A DNA stretch of 39,475 nucleotides from Quinella sp. 1Q7. GTDB taxonomy: Bacteria > Bacillota > Negativicutes > Selenomonadales > Selenomonadaceae. A model generated the notes under the pieces. That model was given only the letters and a program-made list of their open reading frames with translations. It had not been told where the DNA came from and did not search any database. Shown piece after piece: positions 8,908 to 32,824 of the stretch (position 1 is its first letter; every line of letters starts with the position of its first letter). Made by a program: the position numbers and the translations under genes. The stretch lies in NCBI GenBank assembly GCA_015206805.1, contig JADEZP010000008.1:1-39475 (forward strand), written 5' to 3'.

Positions 8908-9861
8908 ATGGGAAGAAATGTCACGCCGACAATCGAAGGCGGCTTGCTTGTTGCGATAACGGTAATTTTGGGGCTGATATCGGTTTACGTGCCGCTTATC
9001 GGGATGATTGTCGAATTTTTCTGCGCGGTGCCAATGGCGGTGCTTACGGCGCGACAGGGCGCGGGCAAGGGCTTGAGCGCGTTAATCGTCACGTTCATGT
9101 TGATGACGATTTTAATCGGACCGCTGATGGCGTTGCGGCTCGTGTTGAGTTTCGGGATATGCGGCGTCGTGCTCGGAGCATGTGTGCAGAAAAATTTCGG
9201 CGCGGTGAAAATTTTTCTGACCACACTGATTGTCGCGTCCGCCGCACAAGTCGTATCGCTCGCGCTGTTGCTTGCCGTAATGGACGTGAACTTTATCGAA
9301 ATGCAAATCGAATTCGTGCGCGAATCGTTCGCGGAGTCGTTCAACGCTTACGAGGCAATGGGCGTCGACAAAGCGCAGATTGACGCGGCAAAAGCTCAAG
9401 TCGAGCCCGCACTTCAGACGTTGGCGCATTTGGTGCCCACGCTGATTTTGTTGGCGTCGCTTATGAATTCGGCGGCGGTATGGCTCACGTCGAAGTGGAT
9501 TTTCCCGAAAGTTCAACTCAAGTTGCCGGAGTTTCCGCCGTTCGCGCAGTGGAAGTTCCCCGCGATTTTCATGTACACGGCGGCATTCGGAGCAATCGGA
9601 ATTTATTGGGGGCTAACGCGGAATTGGACGCCGATTTACGAACTTGCGCTGAACGTGACGGTCGTATCAATGCTTGCGGGCTTCGTGCAGGGGCTGTCGC
9701 TTATGTCGTGCGTTTTCGACCGCTACAACGTCTCAAGATTCGTGCGCGGGCTTTTGTATGCGATTGTGCTGTTGAATATGTTGTTCGTTCAGCTCGTGGC
9801 GATAACGGGCTTGATGGATATGTTGTTCGATTATCGCAAGCGACTTTTTGACGGGAGATGA
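8908..9861 (+). CDS. YybS-like DUF2232 integral membrane protein
   Basis: Multi-TM protein immediately upstream of gdpP; start chosen at MGRNVTPTIEGG (ORF track gives 8878). Confidence 0.72.
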   Translation: MGRNVTPTIEGGLLVAITVILGLISVYVPLIGMIVEFFCAVPMAVLTARQGAGKGLSALIVTFMLMTILIGPLMALRLVLSFGICGVVLGACVQKNFGAVKIFLTTLIVASAAQVVSLALLLAVMDVNFIEMQIEFVRESFAESFNAYEAMGVDKAQIDAAKAQVEPALQTLAHLVPTLILLASLMNSAAVWLTSKWIFPKVQLKLPEFPPFAQWKFPAIFMYTAAFGAIGIYWGLTRNWTPIYELALNVTVVSMLAGFVQGLSLMSCVFDRYNVSRFVRGLLYAIVLLNMLFVQLVAITGLMDMLFDYRKRLFDGR

Positions 9862-17866: not shown

Positions 17867-19099
17867 ATGGTCGACAGAAATTTGTTTGCGCACGATTTGG
17901 CAATCGCGGCGATTCTCAAGAACGAAGGACATTACATCAAAGAGTGGCTCGACTACCACCTGCTTGCGGGCGTCGACCACTTTTATCTTTATGACAACGA
18001 CAGCACCGACAACTACGCCGAAATAATCGCGCCGTATGTTGACGCGGGACTTGTCACGAGCAAACATATCGGCGGCAAGTCCGCGCAGTTCGCCGCGTAT
18101 GACGACGCAGTTTTGAATCATCGTTTCGACTGTAGATACATGGCGTTCGTCGATTTGGACGAATTTATTTTGCCGCGCACGACGACCGATACAATATCCG
18201 CCACGCTCGACGACGTGCTGAAAAATTTTCCCGACGCATCGGGACTTGCTGTTAATTGGCAACTTTACGGCTCAAGCGGTCACGAGACGGCGGATTATTC
18301 GCGTGGAGTATTGGAGCGGTTTACGCGGCGTGCGCCCGTCGATTGGATTGTGCCCATTCCGCACCGCGACATCCCCGGCGGCAACGCTCAAGTCAAAACC
18401 GTCGCCAACCCGCGCAGAATTTTTTGCTTCACGAGTGCGCACTTCCCGATATACTTCGCGGGAAATTTTTCCGTCAATGAGCGCGGCGGACGCGTCGATT
18501 CGTATTGCAATGCGCCCGTCACGGCTGAACGGCTCGTCGTCAATCACTACAACGTTAAGAGCCGTGCGGAGTTTCTCGGCAAGCTCGGCAAAGGTCGCGC
18601 CGATAAGTCGACGAATTATTTTTCCGACGAGTGGTTTGGCATTTACGACCGCAACGAAATTTTCGACGACGGTATCTTAAAATATCGTGCGGCGCGTGCC
18701 GAAAAGTTTGCGCTTGAGACTGACGAACATCGCCTGCACCGCATGAAGACCACGTTAATCGCGACGCTTGCCGCTTACGCCGAAAACGACTTCCCCGCCG
18801 ACAAGCTTGAAACGGCGTTGACGTGCTGTGCCGCCGCCGAACGTTTGCAGGAAAAAATTTTCGCGGAGGCGTCGCTTGCCGCCGTGCTCAAGTCGTTGGA
18901 CGGGCTGAATTTTTCCGACGCGCAACTGTTTTTGAGCGAGCTGCCGAATTTGTTGCGCCTGCCGTATTCAGCGGCGGACGACCTGCGCGGCGCGGCGATT
19001 GAAATAATTTCGCGGCTGATTGACTTCATGCGTGCGAACGAGTGTTGGAAGGACTTCGCGAAGCTGGAACATTTGCGCCGTCTGCTGAAAATTTTTTAG
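17867..19099 (+). CDS. Glycosyltransferase family 92 / DUF23-type protein
   Basis: AAILKNEGHYIKEWLDYHLLAGVDHFYLYDNDSTDNY, FVDLDEFI; C-terminal LRRLLKIF. Confidence 0.83.
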   Translation: MVDRNLFAHDLAIAAILKNEGHYIKEWLDYHLLAGVDHFYLYDNDSTDNYAEIIAPYVDAGLVTSKHIGGKSAQFAAYDDAVLNHRFDCRYMAFVDLDEFILPRTTTDTISATLDDVLKNFPDASGLAVNWQLYGSSGHETADYSRGVLERFTRRAPVDWIVPIPHRDIPGGNAQVKTVANPRRIFCFTSAHFPIYFAGNFSVNERGGRVDSYCNAPVTAERLVVNHYNVKSRAEFLGKLGKGRADKSTNYFSDEWFGIYDRNEIFDDGILKYRAARAEKFALETDEHRLHRMKTTLIATLAAYAENDFPADKLETALTCCAAAERLQEKIFAEASLAAVLKSLDGLNFSDAQLFLSELPNLLRLPYSAADDLRGAAIEIISRLIDFMRANECWKDFAKLEHLRRLLKIF

Positions 19100-19111: not shown

Positions 19112-19501
19112 ATGCCCGTCGACAAAAATTTGTTCCTGCACGATTTGGCGGGCGTAAAGCATTGTTACCTTTACAACAACGAGAACGGCAAGCCCGTGCA
19201 AGTCTACAACAATAACCCCGTCACCGCCGACAAAATCGCGCTCAATCATTACTACACCAAGTCGCGCGAGGAATTCATGTTGAAACAAAATCGCGGGCGT
19301 TCCGACGTCGTCAGCAAATACGGCAACGATTGGTTTGACGTTTTCAATCGCAACGACGAATTGACGACGGTATCTTGAAATAGTTTCTTACGTGCCGCGC
19401 AGTGGCGTCATATCTGCAACTGAAAAACGTCTTCCACATGCACAACCTTTGGCGCGATTATTCCGAGCCGGATTATCTGCAACGACTGCTAAAAATTTTT
19501 A
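19112..19501 (+). pseudogene. Internally deleted, frameshifted paralog of the adjacent GT92 gene
   Basis: VDKNLFLHDLA-GVKHCYLYNNEN matches VDRNLFAHDLA...GVDHFYLYDNDS; NPVTADKIALNHYYTKSREEF matches APVTAERLVVNHYNVKSRAEF; DDGILK is out of frame; tail LQRLLKIF matches LRRLLKIF. Confidence 0.8.
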
Positions 19502-23702: not shown

Positions 23703-24764
23703 TCAATCGACTTTAACCTGCATCCACAGATTGTTGTAGTATTCGTCCATTTGGTTGCCGAGATATTTGTAAGTTTCCTGCCCGCTGTAAATCGCAGGGT
23801 CGGGGAAGGCAATCGGCGAGTTCTTGAGTTCCTCGTCCTCGACAAGTTCGCGGACGCCCGTATTCGGCGTGGAGTAGCCCAAGTGATTGAAATTCATGAC
23901 GGCGACATCGGGGCGGCACATGAAGTCGATAAATTTGTGCGCGTTGTCAACGTTTTCGGCAGTCTTCGTGATAACCCAGCCGTCAATCCAAAAGTTCGTG
24001 CCCTCTTTGGGAATGACGAAATCCATGTTCGGATTTTCCATTAAAATTATCGGAGCCTCGCCGCTGAAGACGACGCCCATTGCCGCTTCGGAATTGATGA
24101 GTTTGTCTTTGACTTCGTCGACGACGTAAGCTTGAACGAGCGGCTTTTGTTGCTTGAGCATCTGTTGAGCTTGCGCAAGGACGTCTTTGTCGGTCTCGTT
24201 CATGCTTTTGCCCATGAGCTTGAGCGGAATCATCAAAGCATCGCGGGCGGAGTCCTGCATAAGAATTTGTCCCGCGTATTTGTCGTTCCACAGAATTTGC
24301 CAGCTGTCGACGGGGTCGGTGACTTTGGTCTTGTCGTAGATTATGCCGACGGTTCCCCAGCAGTAGGGCACGGAATATTTGTTGCCGGGGTCGAAACTTT
24401 CAGCCTGCTTGAAAAAATCCGCGCCGATATATTTTTTGGCGTCGGGCAGTTTGTTGAGGTCGAGCGGCTGAAGTAAATCGTTGCTGATCATTTTCTGAAT
24501 CATGTAGTCGGACGGGCAGATAACGTCGTAATGAACGGCACCTTCCGCCACGCGCGGATACATACTCTCGTTGGTGTCGAATTCGTCAAGCACGACGTGA
24601 ATGCCCGTTTCCTTCTCAAAGAGCTTGAGAACTTCGGGGTCAAGGTAGTCGCCCCAGCTGTAGACGTAAACTTTTTGTTCGGACTTGTTGCCGCCGCCAC
24701 AGCCTGCGACGCCGAACGCCAAACAGCTCACCAACAGGAGCGCAAGAATTTTGAACTTGTTCAT
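23703..24764 (-). CDS. potD: Spermidine/putrescine ABC transporter substrate-binding lipoprotein
   Basis: Lipobox FGVAGCGGG; VYVYSWGDYLDPEVLKLFEKETGIHVVLDEFDTNESMYPR. Confidence 0.94.
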   Translation of the reverse strand: MNKFKILALLLVSCLAFGVAGCGGGNKSEQKVYVYSWGDYLDPEVLKLFEKETGIHVVLDEFDTNESMYPRVAEGAVHYDVICPSDYMIQKMISNDLLQPLDLNKLPDAKKYIGADFFKQAESFDPGNKYSVPYCWGTVGIIYDKTKVTDPVDSWQILWNDKYAGQILMQDSARDALMIPLKLMGKSMNETDKDVLAQAQQMLKQQKPLVQAYVVDEVKDKLINSEAAMGVVFSGEAPIILMENPNMDFVIPKEGTNFWIDGWVITKTAENVDNAHKFIDFMCRPDVAVMNFNHLGYSTPNTGVRELVEDEELKNSPIAFPDPAIYSGQETYKYLGNQMDEYYNNLWMQVKVD

Positions 24765-25549
24765 GAGATAACCTCCTCGTATTGTTTCAGTTTGCGACGG
24801 TTAATCGCGAACAGTAAGACGAAAATCAGCACGAACACGAATACCAGCGTCGACAGCGCGTACATTTCGGGGTGCACGCCGATTTTAAGTTCGGCGTAAA
24901 TTTCCGTCGTGAGTGTGTCGACGCCCGCGCCTTTCGTGAAGTGCGTGATGATGAAGTCGTCAGCCGACATGGTGAACGCCAATAAAAATCCCGCGAAGAT
25001 GCTCGGACGCAACTCCGGCAGGACGACGCCCGTAAACGCCTTGAACGGCGACGCGCCTAAATCAAGTGCCGCCTCGTAAAAACTTTTGTCCAGCGACATC
25101 AACTGCGGCATTATGCACAGGATGACATACGGCACGTTGAAGACGATGTGCGCCAACAAAATCGACACGTAGCCGAGCTTGAGCCCGATACCCAAGAATA
25201 ACAGCATGAGCGATATTCCCGTGACAATGTCGGCGTTAAGTATCGGAATGTTCGTTACGCTCATGAAGGTCGCCCGCCACTTGCGAGAAAGTTCCTTCAT
25301 TGCCACGCACGTTATCAGTCCGAGCAACGTCGCAATGCCCGCCGAGAGCAATCCGATTGACAGCGTGTTCGACAGGGCGTCGGCAATTCGTTCGTCGTTG
25401 AAAAGTTTCGTGTACCAATCCAGCGTGAAGCCCGTCCAATGTCCGCGATATCGGCTTGCGTTGAACGACTGCGCAATCAATACGGCAATCGGCGCGTACA
25501 GGAACAGGAAAATCGTCGCAAGGTAAATTTGCTTGACGTAGCGCATCAA
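24761..25549 (-). CDS. potC: Spermidine/putrescine ABC transporter permease
   Basis: Permease EAA-like loop YEAALDLGASPFKAFTGVVLPELRPSI; operon context. Confidence 0.93.
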   Translation of the reverse strand: MMRYVKQIYLATIFLFLYAPIAVLIAQSFNASRYRGHWTGFTLDWYTKLFNDERIADALSNTLSIGLLSAGIATLLGLITCVAMKELSRKWRATFMSVTNIPILNADIVTGISLMLLFLGIGLKLGYVSILLAHIVFNVPYVILCIMPQLMSLDKSFYEAALDLGASPFKAFTGVVLPELRPSIFAGFLLAFTMSADDFIITHFTKGAGVDTLTTEIYAELKIGVHPEMYALSTLVFVFVLIFVLLFAINRRKLKQYEEVIS

Positions 25550-26379
25550 ACGCCCTCCTCTTCGTGCAACGGCTCAACCGTCATTGTCAACAGCATGTTA
25601 ATCACAATGAAAATCATCAGTATCACCGACAGTGCGCAGCCGACGTGCCAATCGTATTGGAATGTGAATTCCTGTTCGATTATGTTGCCGATTAGCAGGA
25701 GTTTGCCGCCGCCGAGCAATGCGCTGATAACGAACGTCGTAAGCGCGGGAATGAAAACCATCGTCACTCCGCTGACTGCGCCGGGAATGCTCAACGGCAA
25801 AATCACGCGCACGAACGTTTGCCAATAGTTCGCGCCGAGATCCCGCGCCGCCTCCAGAATACTGCGGTCAATCTTCGACAGCGTGATAAACAGCGGCAAA
25901 ACCATATACGGCAGGAAATTGTACACCATGCCGAGGACGATTGCGCCGGGCGTGTTAATCATGTGCAGGTCGGGCAAATTCAGCAGGCGCATGAATTGAT
26001 TGATGATGCCGTTGTGTTCGAGAATTGTTTGCCACGCCATTGTTGACAGCAACGAATTCATCCACAGCGGCAAAATGAACAGCAACGATATTATCGTCGT
26101 GTTGTCGCGCTGACGTTCCGTCAAAATCAAACATAGCGGATAGGCGAGCAACAGGCATATTACTGTGCTGACGAGCGCGAGCGCGATTGAAAGTTCCAGC
26201 GCGTCAAGATAGCCGTGCTTGAGTATCAGTCCCAAATTGCCGAGCGAAAAATTTCCGTCGTAGTCCGTCACGCCGTACCACACGATAAAAATCAGCGGCA
26301 CAAAAATAAACAGTCCCGCCCAAATTAAAAACGGCGTAAGCAGGACGTTGCGTGTGAGCTTGTTAAACATCTTGAGCAA
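25546..26379 (-). CDS. potB: Spermidine/putrescine ABC transporter permease
   Basis: LEAARDLGANYWQTFVRVILPLSIPG; operon context. Confidence 0.93.
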   Translation of the reverse strand: MLKMFNKLTRNVLLTPFLIWAGLFIFVPLIFIVWYGVTDYDGNFSLGNLGLILKHGYLDALELSIALALVSTVICLLLAYPLCLILTERQRDNTTIISLLFILPLWMNSLLSTMAWQTILEHNGIINQFMRLLNLPDLHMINTPGAIVLGMVYNFLPYMVLPLFITLSKIDRSILEAARDLGANYWQTFVRVILPLSIPGAVSGVTMVFIPALTTFVISALLGGGKLLLIGNIIEQEFTFQYDWHVGCALSVILMIFIVINMLLTMTVEPLHEEEGV

Positions 26380-27433
26380 CCTCCTCGTCTTCGGATTGCG
26401 GCTTGCTCATGATTTGAATATTTTCGGGCGCGACGTGCAGACTGACCTCCTCGCCGACAGTGCGCCCAGTCGTCGACTGAATCAGCCACTCAAAGCCGTC
26501 CGCCTCGACGTTGATATCATAGGACATACCCCAAAAGACGACGCGCGTCACAACGCCGTTGAAGGCACCTTCGCGCGGCGCGGCAAGCTTGATGTCTTCG
26601 GGACGAATCTGCACGTCAACGGGACATTCCGTCGGAAAGCCGCTGTCGACGCAGGGATATTCTCGTCCGAAAATCCGCACGACCTTATCGCGAACCATCA
26701 CGCCATCGATTATGTTGCTGTCGCCGATAAAGTCCGCGACGAAGGCGTTTTCGGGCTCGTTGTAGACATTTTCGGGCGTGCCGACTTGCTGAATGTAACC
26801 TTGATTCATGACGACGACGCGGTCGCTCATGGAAAGTGCCTCTTCCTGATCGTGCGTCACGAAGATAAACGTTATGCCGGTCTCCTTGTTTATGCGGACG
26901 AGTTCGCGGCGCATGTTACGGCGCAACTTCAAGTCCAACGCGCTCAACGGCTCATCGAGCAACAAAACTTTCGGCTCATTGACGACGGCGCGGGCAATGG
27001 CAATGCGTTGTTGCTGACCGCCGCTTAGTTTCGTGACGTCGTGCTTTTCGTAGCCGTCCAAGTTCACCAAGTGCAGGGCGTACTTGACCTTGTCGCGAAT
27101 GTAGTCGGCTGACTTGCCCGCGATTTTCGGTCCGAAGGAAATATTTTCCTCAACGTTCATGTGCGAGAACAGTGAGTACTTTTGGAAAACGGTGTTGACG
27201 GGTCGGCGATTGGGCGGCAAGTTCGTTATGTCTTTGTCGTCGAAAAGGACGCGTCCCGTGTCGGGCATTTCAAAGCCGCCGATAATCCGAAGCATCGTCG
27301 TCTTGCCGCAGCCCGACGGTCCGAGCAACGTAATGAATTCGCTTTCGTATATCGACAAATTTATTTCGTCGAGCACGAGCAAGCTCCCGAATGATTTCGC
27401 GATGTTCTCCAAACGTATCAGTTCCCGTTTCAT
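26363..27433 (-). CDS. potA: Spermidine/putrescine ABC transporter ATP-binding protein
   Basis: Walker A GPSGCGKTT, LSGGQQQRIAIARA, LLLDEPLSALD; TOBE-like C-terminus. Confidence 0.95.
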   Translation of the reverse strand: MKRELIRLENIAKSFGSLLVLDEINLSIYESEFITLLGPSGCGKTTMLRIIGGFEMPDTGRVLFDDKDITNLPPNRRPVNTVFQKYSLFSHMNVEENISFGPKIAGKSADYIRDKVKYALHLVNLDGYEKHDVTKLSGGQQQRIAIARAVVNEPKVLLLDEPLSALDLKLRRNMRRELVRINKETGITFIFVTHDQEEALSMSDRVVVMNQGYIQQVGTPENVYNEPENAFVADFIGDSNIIDGVMVRDKVVRIFGREYPCVDSGFPTECPVDVQIRPEDIKLAAPREGAFNGVVTRVVFWGMSYDINVEADGFEWLIQSTTGRTVGEEVSLHVAPENIQIMSKPQSEDEEVAQDV

Positions 27434-27473
27434 TTCCCAGCAACCCTTCAGAAAAAATTTCGGCTATTGTACT

Positions 27474-27506
27474 AAAAAACGACGTCTCAATCAAGAAACG
27501 CCGTTT
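27474..27506 (-). terminator. Terminator of the MATE / condensation / GG-peptide operon
   Basis: Minus strand AACGGCGT-ttcttgattgag-ACGTCGTT followed by TTTT. Confidence 0.55.
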
Positions 27507-27530
27507 TAACATTTTCCGCCGCCGTCCGAA

Positions 27531-27725
27531 TCACGGATTGCGGTAATTTTTTTGCGCAGTGTAATTGTTTGTTGCGACAGACGTGTATAAGTCGAAATTC
27601 GGTTGTTGCGTCGAAAGAGCCTGTTCAAAAGCGACAATGGCGACGGAAAGATTTGTGCCGCCGCGCACGCCGTCAAGCTGTTCGTCGCTTAGCAATTCGC
27701 CGTCGAATTTTTTTGTGTCGGTCAT
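27531..27725 (-). CDS. Small peptide with double-glycine-type leader (candidate RiPP/bacteriocin-like precursor)
   Basis: MTDTKKFDGELLSDEQLDGVRGG|TNLSVAIVAFEQALSTQQPNFDLYTSVATNNYTAQKNYRNP; GGGAGG RBS; 22 nt downstream of the condensation gene. Confidence 0.7.
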   Translation of the reverse strand: MTDTKKFDGELLSDEQLDGVRGGTNLSVAIVAFEQALSTQQPNFDLYTSVATNNYTAQKNYRNP

Positions 27726-27747
27726 TGCAATCAGCCTCCCGAAAATT

Positions 27748-29007
27748 TCAGCCGAGGATTTGGGCAGTGTGCGTCGCCGGATTTTGCATGACGCGGACAA
27801 TTTCGTCGAGCGTCGCGGCAAAATTTTTCATTTCGGCTTCGGAATAGCGGCTTGCGTCGTAATCGAGGTAGAGCGAATATCTGCCCGTGTCTTCGATGTT
27901 AATTTCAACGTCGAGCGCGTTTTCCACGGCGGAAATTTCATTCGGCGGCAGGTAAACAATCTCAACGGGCGTGTCGCAGAAAATAAATTCGTTGTTGATA
28001 TTTTTCTGGAAGATGAAGCTGACGCAGTCGTCTTCGAGCCCGTCGTTATAAACAATGTCCAAGCTCTTGCGATACTTCGTGCCGATATGAATCTGACCTT
28101 CGAGCTTGTCGACGAATTCGCCGATAAACATATCTTGAGTAAAATCCCACGCGCAGGGCAGTTGCTCAAGCATCAAGCCCATAAGCCGCCGTTCCTTCAT
28201 GTTGGTGCGACCGTTGTTGACGCGGCTCATGACGACATCTTTGTTGCCGGTGATTTTCGCCAGTGTGAGCATCGTCGCGCCGAGGAAGAAATTATTTTCG
28301 TTGACGTGTGTATTGCGGAAGAATTCGTTGAAAATATTTTTGAACGTATAATCGACGTTGCCTTTAGTCCACGCCGCGACGCCTTGCACATTGACGGGCG
28401 GCAGGTGCCTGCTTTTGTCGAAGTGCGACAACATCTTGCGCCAATACGTGTGACCTTCGGCAAGGACTTCGGGCGGAATGTTCGCCTCCTCCTCAACGTA
28501 AGCCGCATAGCTCGGTGCGGACTGTTGACGTTTGCGCCCGCGATACACCGCGTCAATTTCGCGCCAAAGCAGGTACGACGCCGCCACGCCGTCCATAACC
28601 GCATGATAGAAGTCGCCGAACATATATTTTGCTGTCGGCGTTTGGAACAGGTAAATTCGCCACAACGGCTTGTTGATGATTCGATACGGCTCGCGCAACT
28701 TGTCGACGCGCTTATCAAATTCCTCGTCGCTGATGTGTTCGACTTGCACGGGCTGAATTTCCCCGTCGAAAATTTGGCACAAGTCGCTTGTTTCTGGGTG
28801 GAACAGGAAGCGGCAACGGAATATGTCGTGCGAATTCAGGACAACGTTAATCGCGGCGGCAAGGCGATTCATATCGATTGCGTGCGACATCTTGAACAAA
28901 GCACCGATATTCATCATGGTGGATTTTGCCTTGTTGAAGTGCGTATCGACGAGCCAACGCTGAACTGGGCGCAACGGGTAAAATTTTTTTGTCGAGAAGC
29001 CTTCCAT
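27748..29007 (-). CDS. Stand-alone condensation (C) domain protein
   Basis: FYPLRPVQRWLVD start, YHAVMDGVAASYLLWREI (HxxxDG active-site motif), R(V)NNGR region; GGAGGA RBS. Confidence 0.85.
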   Translation of the reverse strand: MEGFSTKKFYPLRPVQRWLVDTHFNKAKSTMMNIGALFKMSHAIDMNRLAAAINVVLNSHDIFRCRFLFHPETSDLCQIFDGEIQPVQVEHISDEEFDKRVDKLREPYRIINKPLWRIYLFQTPTAKYMFGDFYHAVMDGVAASYLLWREIDAVYRGRKRQQSAPSYAAYVEEEANIPPEVLAEGHTYWRKMLSHFDKSRHLPPVNVQGVAAWTKGNVDYTFKNIFNEFFRNTHVNENNFFLGATMLTLAKITGNKDVVMSRVNNGRTNMKERRLMGLMLEQLPCAWDFTQDMFIGEFVDKLEGQIHIGTKYRKSLDIVYNDGLEDDCVSFIFQKNINNEFIFCDTPVEIVYLPPNEISAVENALDVEINIEDTGRYSLYLDYDASRYSEAEMKNFAATLDEIVRVMQNPATHTAQILG

Positions 29008-29019
29008 AAAAATTCCTCC

Positions 29020-29133
29020 TTACACGACGACAAATTTGTTTTCGTCGCCGCGAATCATATAAAATTTTTTGCGGACGTTATCGGGCAGATTGAACGGCGT
29101 ATCATGAATTATACGTTTGTCGCCGAAAATTTC
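29020..29133 (-). pseudogene. Relic of a second MATE/RsbW-like gene 3' end
   Basis: TPFNLPDNVRKKFYMIRGDENKFVVV* parallels APFNPADKLNPLDNVREKNYMISGDENKFVVVV* at the MATE C-terminus. Confidence 0.75.
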
Positions 29134-30783
29134 TTACACGACGACGACAAATTTATTTTCGTCGCCGCTTATCATGTAATTTTTTTCGCGAACGTTATCA
29201 AGCGGATTGAGCTTGTCGGCGGGATTGAACGGCGCGGCATTTTCGCGGAATATGACGGTCGCAAAGTCGCCTTGCGGAATTATCGTGACCTCCAGCCGGA
29301 AATCTTCTGCGCGGGCGGCGTGGACGTTGAAGACCTCCGCGACGAGCTGCCGCAAAAAAATTTTCTTGTCGTCGGGCAGTTGGAGCGTCGATAAAAATTT
29401 TTCCAGCGCGTCAGTCAGTGCAGGTAAGTTTTCGGGCGCGGGAGTTGTGTCGAACGAAAATTGCCGCGAAAATTTCTGCGCGTCGATAAGCAGTAAGCCC
29501 GACTCGTTGCGCGTCAAAAGTCGCGTCACAATCAGCGCGACGATAAACGACACTCCGACGCCCGCCCACATGAAATGCACGCCGAATTCTCCCGCGAACA
29601 TGCCCGCGCTCGGCAAAATCAGCAACAGCAAAAATTTTATCGCCGCGCCGAAATTCAGCCGCTCAATGTAAATGTAGTAGTTGCTCAACATCAGCGTCAC
29701 GCCCAAAAAAATCGTGAACGGCATAAAAATTCTCACGGCGCGCACGCATTCGGCATAGAATTTGTCAGCCGACTCCACGCCGAAAAGTCCCGGCAACAGC
29801 TCCGCGAATACGAAGCTGAACAAAATCAGCACGATTGTCACGGCGACCGTCGAAGATATTCCGAGGCGCATTGTCTTCGCGACGCTGTGAAGTGCGCCTT
29901 CCGCGTGATATTGACAGACCATCGGTTGCAGGCAGTCGACAATGCCCGTGTATATCGTGACCAAAAGCGTGAACATGTTGACAATTACCGTGACGATTAT
30001 CAAGTGGTGCTCGTCGAAGCGCGACAGAACATACGCCGAAAAAATCAGCGGCAACAGCGCAAGGCACAGCGTGTCGACCGAGTGATACCAGCTGTAAAAA
30101 ATTCCGCGCCACAGTTCGCCGCCGTGCCAATAGCGCATGAAACGCAGCTGACAATTTTTCGAGAACAGATACGGCACGTGATACAGGAAGCTGACCAAGT
30201 TGCCGACCGTCGTTGCAATGCCGATACCGATAACGCCGATATAATGTCCCAGCACGACGTCAAGCACGACGTTGACGACGAACATTGCGATTGACGCTTG
30301 CACGCAGATATTTTCTTCGCCCTCCGCAACGTAAATCGTGTAGAAGTAAATGTTCAGCATACACGGCAGGGCGACGAACATCAGCCCGCGATAGTATTCG
30401 TCGGCGTAAGTCAGCAGGTGCGGAGAAATTTCCCACAGCGATAAAATTTCTTCTCGGCAGGCAATGAGCACGACGGTTATCAGCACGCCCGTCACGACCG
30501 CGACTTCCGCGCCCAAGCTGAAAAGTTCGTTCGCCTTGAGTTGATCGTTGTGACCTTTGGCGTAGGAAAACATCATTGCCAAGCCGTCGGCGACCATGTA
30601 GCTCAAGAAAACTATCAGCGTCATTATCGGCGCGACGAGCGTCATTGCCTCGACCGCCGCCTTGCCGACGAATTGTCCCGCGACGATATTGTCCGTCAAA
30701 GTCAGCACGTAGGAAATTGACATTGACGCAATCGACGCCACGAATACCGAGCGGAAACGTTCGCTTATAACCGTCTTCGTCAT
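29134..30783 (-). CDS. MATE family transporter with C-terminal RsbW/HATPase-like domain
   Basis: SISYVLTLTDNIVAGQFVGKAAVEAMTLVAPI typical of MATE; C-terminal LPDDKKIFLRQLVAEVFNVHAARAEDFRLEVTIIPQGDFATVIFRENAAPFNP like an anti-sigma/HATPase fold; ATG at 30783. Confidence 0.8.
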   Translation of the reverse strand: MTKTVISERFRSVFVASIASMSISYVLTLTDNIVAGQFVGKAAVEAMTLVAPIMTLIVFLSYMVADGLAMMFSYAKGHNDQLKANELFSLGAEVAVVTGVLITVVLIACREEILSLWEISPHLLTYADEYYRGLMFVALPCMLNIYFYTIYVAEGEENICVQASIAMFVVNVVLDVVLGHYIGVIGIGIATTVGNLVSFLYHVPYLFSKNCQLRFMRYWHGGELWRGIFYSWYHSVDTLCLALLPLIFSAYVLSRFDEHHLIIVTVIVNMFTLLVTIYTGIVDCLQPMVCQYHAEGALHSVAKTMRLGISSTVAVTIVLILFSFVFAELLPGLFGVESADKFYAECVRAVRIFMPFTIFLGVTLMLSNYYIYIERLNFGAAIKFLLLLILPSAGMFAGEFGVHFMWAGVGVSFIVALIVTRLLTRNESGLLLIDAQKFSRQFSFDTTPAPENLPALTDALEKFLSTLQLPDDKKIFLRQLVAEVFNVHAARAEDFRLEVTIIPQGDFATVIFRENAAPFNPADKLNPLDNVREKNYMISGDENKFVVVV

Positions 30784-32242: not shown

Positions 32243-32476
32243 TCAAGCCGTGGCAAGCAGTTCGTCGATTTTGCGCTTGTCGAAGCCGAGCACGTAGTTG
32301 ACGCCGTCGATTGTCGTAACGGGAACGGTCAAGTCGCCCGAAATTTTCAAGCACTCGTTGCGCGCCGATTCGCTCTCCTCAATGTCGCAGGTCTGATATT
32401 CGACGCCGCGTGCCTGCAAATATTTTTTGACCTTGTCGCACCACGGGCAACCCTCGAACGAATAAACTTTAACCAT
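32243..32476 (-). CDS. Glutaredoxin (A)
   Basis: MVKVYSFEGCPWCDKVKKYL...TVPVTTIDGVNYVLGFDKRKIDELLATA. Confidence 0.9.
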   Translation of the reverse strand: MVKVYSFEGCPWCDKVKKYLQARGVEYQTCDIEESESARNECLKISGDLTVPVTTIDGVNYVLGFDKRKIDELLATA

Positions 32477-32490
32477 AAAAAAATTCCTCC

Positions 32491-32669
32491 TTACAAACAC
32501 AACAGCTCGTCCAACGCCGCTTTGTCGAAGTCGATAACGTAATGTTCGTTGTCAATCGTCGTAACGGGCGGCACGGACGGCGATACGTCCTTACAAACAC
32601 AACAGCTCGTCCAACGCCGCTTTGTCGAAGTCGATAACGTAATGTTCGTTGTCAATCGTCGTAACGGGC
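32491..32669 (-). repeat. 100-bp-period direct repeat: exact copy of glutaredoxin B 3' end
   Basis: 32491-32569 and 32591-32669 are identical (79 bp), separated by a short spacer. Confidence 0.97.
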
Positions 32670-32824
32670 ACCGCCCAATCCATGCCCGTGAGCTTTTTGC
32701 AAGCGGCGCGGGCGGCAGGGTCAACCTCAATGTCAAGCTCCTCGAACTCGACATCTTTGGACTTAAGATATTTTTTGACTTTGGCGCACCACGGACAGCT
32801 TTGGATTGTGTAGACTTTGACCAT
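32591..32824 (-). CDS. Glutaredoxin (B)
   Basis: MVKVYTIQSCPWCAKVKKYL...AVPVTTIDNEHYVIDFDKAALDELLCL. Confidence 0.9.
   Translation of the reverse strand: MVKVYTIQSCPWCAKVKKYLKSKDVEFEELDIEVDPAARAACKKLTGMDWAVPVTTIDNEHYVIDFDKAALDELLCL

Follow-up and report, generated by a model that had tools for sequence, protein, structure and literature searches.

The window, the whole 39,475-nucleotide stretch of Quinella sp. 1Q7 DNA analysed here, carries a minus-strand operon in which a stand-alone NRPS-type condensation (C) protein lies behind a MATE-family exporter and ahead of a short double-glycine (GG)-leader peptide gene. The conserved unit is the C gene with the MATE gene, not the C gene with the peptide gene. 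We favour, with moderate confidence, a reading of the operon as the reduced descendant of a synthesis-and-export pair, in which the C protein would make a small acyl or amide product and the MATE would export it. The gene for the GG-leader peptide is an optional neighbour that is co-transcribed and evolves fast, and it is not the core of the system.

The Quinella sp. 1Q7 rumen MAG comprises 2.58 Mb on 169 contigs (95% complete, 5.7% contaminated). Along the minus strand of the window, the MATE gene is followed after a 126-nt gap by the C gene, after a further 22 nt by the peptide gene, and then by a hairpin and potABCD. The features are:

29134..30783, minus strand: MATE-family exporter of 549 aa with an RsbW-like C-terminal domain (PF01554, family scan)
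29137..29478, minus strand: C-terminal part of the MATE (residues 436–549) with a degenerate RsbW/SpoIIAB fold (AF2 and Foldseek)
29009..29093, minus strand: decayed copy of part of the MATE 3' end, a 79% direct repeat
27748..29007, minus strand: stand-alone NRPS-type C protein of 419 aa (Pfam, AF2, Foldseek)
27726..27747, minus strand: 22-nt gap between the C stop codon and the peptide gene, holding the ribosome binding site of the latter
27531..27725, minus strand: GG-leader precursor peptide of 64 aa (leader 23 aa, core 41 aa, Cys absent)
27473..27507, minus strand: hairpin that resembles an intrinsic terminator and closes the operon, with a loop overlapping the promoter-like −35 of potA
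23703..27433, minus strand: potABCD polyamine transporter, often found downstream and equipped with a promoter-like site of its own

The preliminary description of this DNA had proposed three closely spaced same-strand genes closed by a terminator-like hairpin before potA, and this layout was confirmed: the open reading frames occupy the proposed order, place and strand, and GGGAGG stands upstream of the peptide ATG inside the short gap that follows the C stop codon. The hairpin has a 13-bp stem and a T run (z=-2.1), and is absent from the list of a generic terminator scan. The promoter-like site of potA reads TTGATT-17-TACAAT, with its first hexamer inside the hairpin loop (27466-27507 region); a similar overlap of terminator loop and −35 is visible ahead of potA at another genus locus (L063). 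The decayed duplicate in the MATE-C gap is an 85-nt copy of 29126-29210, and a similar duplicate of a MATE 3' end occurs at L036 (9182-9295).

The C protein matches Pfam Condensation (PF00668) with E=2.6e-43 (148.8 bits against a curated cut-off of 30.6), and Pfam found neither an A nor a T domain in its 419 residues, in agreement with the earlier reading of a single C domain bearing HAVMDG. Its active site is YHAVMDG, in which Tyr replaces the first His of HHxxxDG and the catalytic His and DG are retained; DFYHAxMDG is the common form of the motif among 65 genus homologues, and the catalytic His and DG are present in nearly all of these, as is the Tyr in place of the first His. An AF2 model of the protein (pLDDT 89, pTM 0.87) has the C-domain fold, and the best Foldseek matches to it are all C domains (MokA C, E=2.6e-26; TycC, TM 0.81). 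Apart from this one, the same genome has a single C domain, fused to a cNMP-binding-like domain in a 601-aa protein (L170, 1363-3168).

At E<=0.001, 55 of the 66 genus genomes hold homologues of the C protein, with C domains within large NRPSs counted among them. Stand-alone C genes are frequently multicopy within a genome, some of them in tandem. Since some near-complete genus genomes hold no C gene, its function is dispensable.

The MATE of the window matches PF01554 in two stretches (E=2e-20, 73.5 bits against a cut-off of 24.9). Like other MATE efflux transporters it has MatE domains scoring above the cut-off, together with partial similarity to MurJ (PF03023); it differs from them in adding a C-terminal RsbW-fold domain and in its recurrent pairing with a condensation enzyme. 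Searching the PDB by sequence with the tail alignment gave no informative match, and a fold comparison was therefore used. The AF2 model of the tail, built with the family alignment, has a pLDDT of 89.7, and its top Foldseek matches are UsfX, RsbW and SpoIIAB, several of them in complexes with STAS antagonists, which upholds the degenerate RsbW-like tail of the preliminary description. Pfam did not report HATPase_c_2 for the window's own MATE sequence; the domain scores above the cut-off in the MATE of L205 and weakly in 4 of the 19 members of the window's MATE family. The canonical N-box Asn is absent from the aligned RsbW-like tails, so kinase activity of these tails is doubtful; they may be STAS binders only, or have neither function.

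Outside the genus, family and class profile searches recovered the C homologue as a STAS-Condensation (STAS-C) fusion of about 530 aa, full-length in two families, with Pfam STAS matches of 8.5e-13 and 1.3e-13 alongside Condensation; the STAS-C proteins examined also keep the catalytic His and DG. In a sample drawn evenly from across the phylum, matches were confined to the window's own family. One genus member (G031, L086) retains the STAS-C fusion, and the C protein of the window has no STAS domain. A decayed STAS in the MATE-C gap of the window was considered and rejected, as that gap holds the MATE 3'-end duplicate. At some other genus loci the profile match extends 10-30 residues into a stop-ridden stretch upstream of the C gene, and these stretches may be STAS remnants.

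A MATE gene lies within two genes downstream of STAS-C at 19 of 20 Selenomonadaceae loci (the twentieth is cut by a contig end), and accompanies it at all five loci of the second family. Within the genus, a MATE is near the C gene at about 21 of 60 loci; at about two thirds there is no adjoining MATE, though some of these loci are cut by contig ends. The preliminary description had put forward a three-gene peptide system. The C and MATE parts of it do occur together, not just in the genus but also elsewhere in Selenomonadaceae and in another family, but the peptide does not hold its place as a core component, since most C loci are without one. The MATE follows STAS-C immediately or after one NRPS gene; it belongs to the window's MATE family at eight loci and to a second MATE family at the others. 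Many loci of the second type start with a dCache-HAMP-SpoIIE phosphatase, sometimes with a separate STAS gene, and many include a 1210-aa A-PCP-C NRPS. DUF6056 membrane proteins, often paired, recur near STAS-C/MATE loci (L204, L208, L209, L211, L218, L068), and in Quinella these neighbours are accompanied by a DPM1-like glycosyltransferase and a metallo-β-lactamase-fold protein.

STAS and RsbW are the two halves of a partner switch, which usually controls sigma factors, and enzyme and exporter were thus probably coupled ancestrally through such a switch, judging from the domains that they carry. With STAS on one protein and the RsbW fold on its partner, we propose that in the relatives unphosphorylated STAS would dock on the RsbW-like MATE tail and so join enzyme and exporter, and that in some of them a SpoIIE-type phosphatase sensor would set the switch. 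The resemblance to RsbV-RsbW and SpoIIAA-SpoIIAB with RsbU or SpoIIE lies in the joint presence of STAS, RsbW fold and SpoIIE phosphatase in the relatives' operons, where STAS keeps its SSAG serine region. Here, however, STAS is fused to the condensation enzyme and the RsbW fold to the MATE, instead of controlling a sigma factor, the MATE tails are without the N-box Asn, and the window is without STAS. No PP2C (SpoIIE/RsbU) phosphatase gene is present in the window, although many relatives' operons have one. In the genus of the window, STAS is lost (one member excepted) and the tail is degenerate, so that switching is probably gone and the pair remains.

More tentatively, we suggest that these loci form a Negativicutes class of sigma-factor-free partner switches, which gate an enzyme-exporter complex through the docking of a STAS-fused condensation enzyme on an RsbW-fused MATE; the enzyme would have come to form amides or esters from acyl-AcpP or acyl-CoA with no need of NRPS carriers, and would have spread among rumen Quinella and been duplicated there. 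The parts all belong to known families, and it is the combination of STAS, condensation enzyme and MATE for which no description was found. Literature searches on STAS with condensation domains and MATE, on partner switching with nonribosomal synthesis and on NRPS in rumen Selenomonadaceae found no paper, in a coverage that excludes most subscription journals, and neither condensation domains nor bacteriocins come up in the main text of the paper on Quinella genomes (PMC9585023). If the proposal is true, a partner switch directly couples an NRPS-type enzyme to an exporter, and a condensation enzyme lives without an NRPS. It supplies two specific domains whose interaction can be put to the test, and it points to an enzyme family of uncultured bacteria that are abundant in the rumen.

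The STAS-RsbW pairing, which suggests regulation, would also suit a C protein that is a non-catalytic scaffold or an acyl-AcpP sensor regulating the MATE, and no substrate-supplying enzyme is adjacent. The near-universal retention of the catalytic His and DG, in the genus and in the STAS-C proteins alike, speaks against this role, which we consider quite improbable.

The reading of the C protein as an active synthase raises the matter of its acyl donor. A PF00550 search of the own genome gave a single PP-binding protein of 78 aa, AcpP, whose gene adjoins fabG and an enoyl-reductase-type gene. No NRPS carrier (PCP) was found in this MAG, which at 95% completeness may have missed an NRPS. AcpP is likewise the single carrier in G029 (99% complete), G038, G013, G017 and others, and in two genomes that hold STAS-C with MATE, G142 (100%) and G157 (99%). 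The lack of an NRPS carrier from the own genome and from several near-complete relatives indicates that C works without an NRPS, and points to acyl-AcpP or acyl-CoA as the most likely thioester donor, or to another donor. From such a donor the condensation-fold enzyme would make a small acyl or aminoacyl conjugate (amide or ester), and the adjacent MATE would carry the conjugate out of the cell.

The preliminary description had named a consistent pairing of C orthologues with carriers of an NRPS or PKS pathway as evidence against its proposal. Such a pairing holds only in part: some relatives do have the A-PCP-C NRPS, but the own genome and several near-complete ones hold no NRPS carrier. That the C protein is an ordinary NRPS module acting in trans with the carriers of an NRPS pathway is suggested by the several relatives in which this NRPS lies directly between STAS-C and MATE, and by the NRPS C domains that are its closest solved structures. 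The AcpP-only carrier complement of the own genome and of G029, G038, G013, G142 and G157 (94-100% complete) makes it an unlikely account. VibH and SgcC5 are free-standing C enzymes that serve carrier-bound substrates in defined pathways. The own protein shares the single C-domain fold and the HxxxDG active site with them (PDB 1l5a and 4znm), but here there is no PCP in the genome, relatives have STAS fused to the enzyme, and its partner is a MATE that ends in an RsbW-like domain.

Genes of the pot transporter are near the C gene at about 28 of the 60 genus loci, and VibH matches the family profile with E=2.8e-6. By analogy with VibH and norspermidine, the C protein could conjugate a polyamine imported by potABCD, with the MATE exporting the conjugate. 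We give this little credence: no pot linkage was seen at STAS-C loci outside the genus, potA lies behind the terminator with a promoter-like site of its own, and the pot synteny may simply be inherited. Selenomonas has a link between peptidoglycan and diamines, which the MurJ similarity and potABCD brought to mind; no evidence for its involvement was found, and the C gene is absent from some near-complete genus genomes, so this idea was set aside. Elsewhere in the window, an 88-aa open reading frame (19112-19378) follows a 410-aa protein (17867-19099) with a similar start, possibly as a truncated duplicate, and two 77-aa glutaredoxin-like genes adjoin one another at 32243-32824.

As had been proposed, the peptide is a genuine GG-leader precursor, with the leader MTDTKKFDGELLSDEQLDGVRGG and a Cys-free core, both read from the translation. 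This leader is common to other precursors of the own genome: a leader profile, which included the window leader itself, gave 28 matches at E<=0.0011, mostly in precursors of 100-130 aa and on eight contigs besides that of the window. The core has no homologues in the 66 genus genomes, where only the leader was matched. The suggested comparison with Nif11 models was extended to NHLP and Pfam peptide models, none of which matched the window peptide above cut-off; the best match, to the CTB-family bacteriocins, scored 17.8 bits, below the cut-off of 32.

All four C39-peptidase proteins of the own genome lie outside the window. The one on contig C145 is an NHLM ABC1 equivalog adjoining NHLM ABC2 and HlyD equivalogs (all above cut-off), with GG peptides upstream, and that on C18 is likewise an NHLM ABC1 equivalog. 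The window peptide probably would be cut and exported by these NHLM C39 exporters. Compared with known NHLM/NHLP bacteriocin export (TIGR03796/3797/3794), its leader type is common to the ~28 precursors of an NHLM-bearing genome, whereas the peptide itself is short and encoded away from the exporters, in addition to matching neither precursor model.

To place the peptide across the genus, all six frames of 60 C loci were scanned with the leader profile. A GG peptide directly follows the C gene on the same strand, 12-23 nt from the C stop codon, at four loci (the window, L041, L044 and L059); at the three non-window loci it starts 12-18 nt after the C gene. At L042 and L043 it lies about 1.1-1.2 kb behind the C gene, with an MFS gene between. 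The only other leader matches are three at L090, 3-4 kb upstream. L063, sister to L059, carries a GG peptide pseudogene (~9375-9561, minus strand) whose leader is interrupted by an in-frame stop; it shares 64% identity with the intact peptide of L059. With 28 leaders in 2.58 Mb, the number expected in this slot by chance is far below one, and the slot behind C is not chance.

In a phylogenetic tree, the six peptide carriers are spread over five branches, all within one clade of 35 rows, and have close relatives in which the peptide gene is missing. This pattern shows that the slot is real and the peptide gene optional: either the ancestor of the clade had it and it was lost several times, or it was acquired several times. 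Beyond this recurrence, the proposed conservation of the peptide beside C orthologues largely did not hold, and no GG peptide stands beside the closest orthologues of the window C protein (77-83% identity).

Adjacency to a GG-leader peptide does not make that peptide the substrate of the enzyme, and the distribution corrects a natural mistake. The preliminary description had suggested that the C protein may acylate or condense the adjoining peptide, which would give a modified ribosomal product. The four loci with a peptide 12-23 nt after C, the two with one behind an MFS gene and the decayed copy are consistent with this, as is a conserved leader before a fast-changing core: between L042 and L043, in small samples, dN is 0.40 for the core (dS 0.94), 0.09 for the leader and 0.036 for the C gene. 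Against it, most of the 60 loci, the closest orthologues included, have no peptide, cores are unrelated between branches, and the genome has many peptides with the same leader type at places where there is no C gene; inspection of neighbour genes, rather than leader-profile scanning, showed none beside STAS-C outside the genus. Modification of the peptide is thus possible but weakly supported, and we hold it to be very unlikely.

About 27 more GG-leader precursors lie on contigs C165, C109, C147, C66, C44, C135, C163 and C145 (L158-L165), mostly in tandem arrays with diverse cores, with NHLM exporters at L165 and L166. At L165 (10153-10940), tandem repeated open reading frames of 74-79 aa (MSNSASVGIEFTAKNG...) lie upstream of the NHLM exporter and GG peptides.
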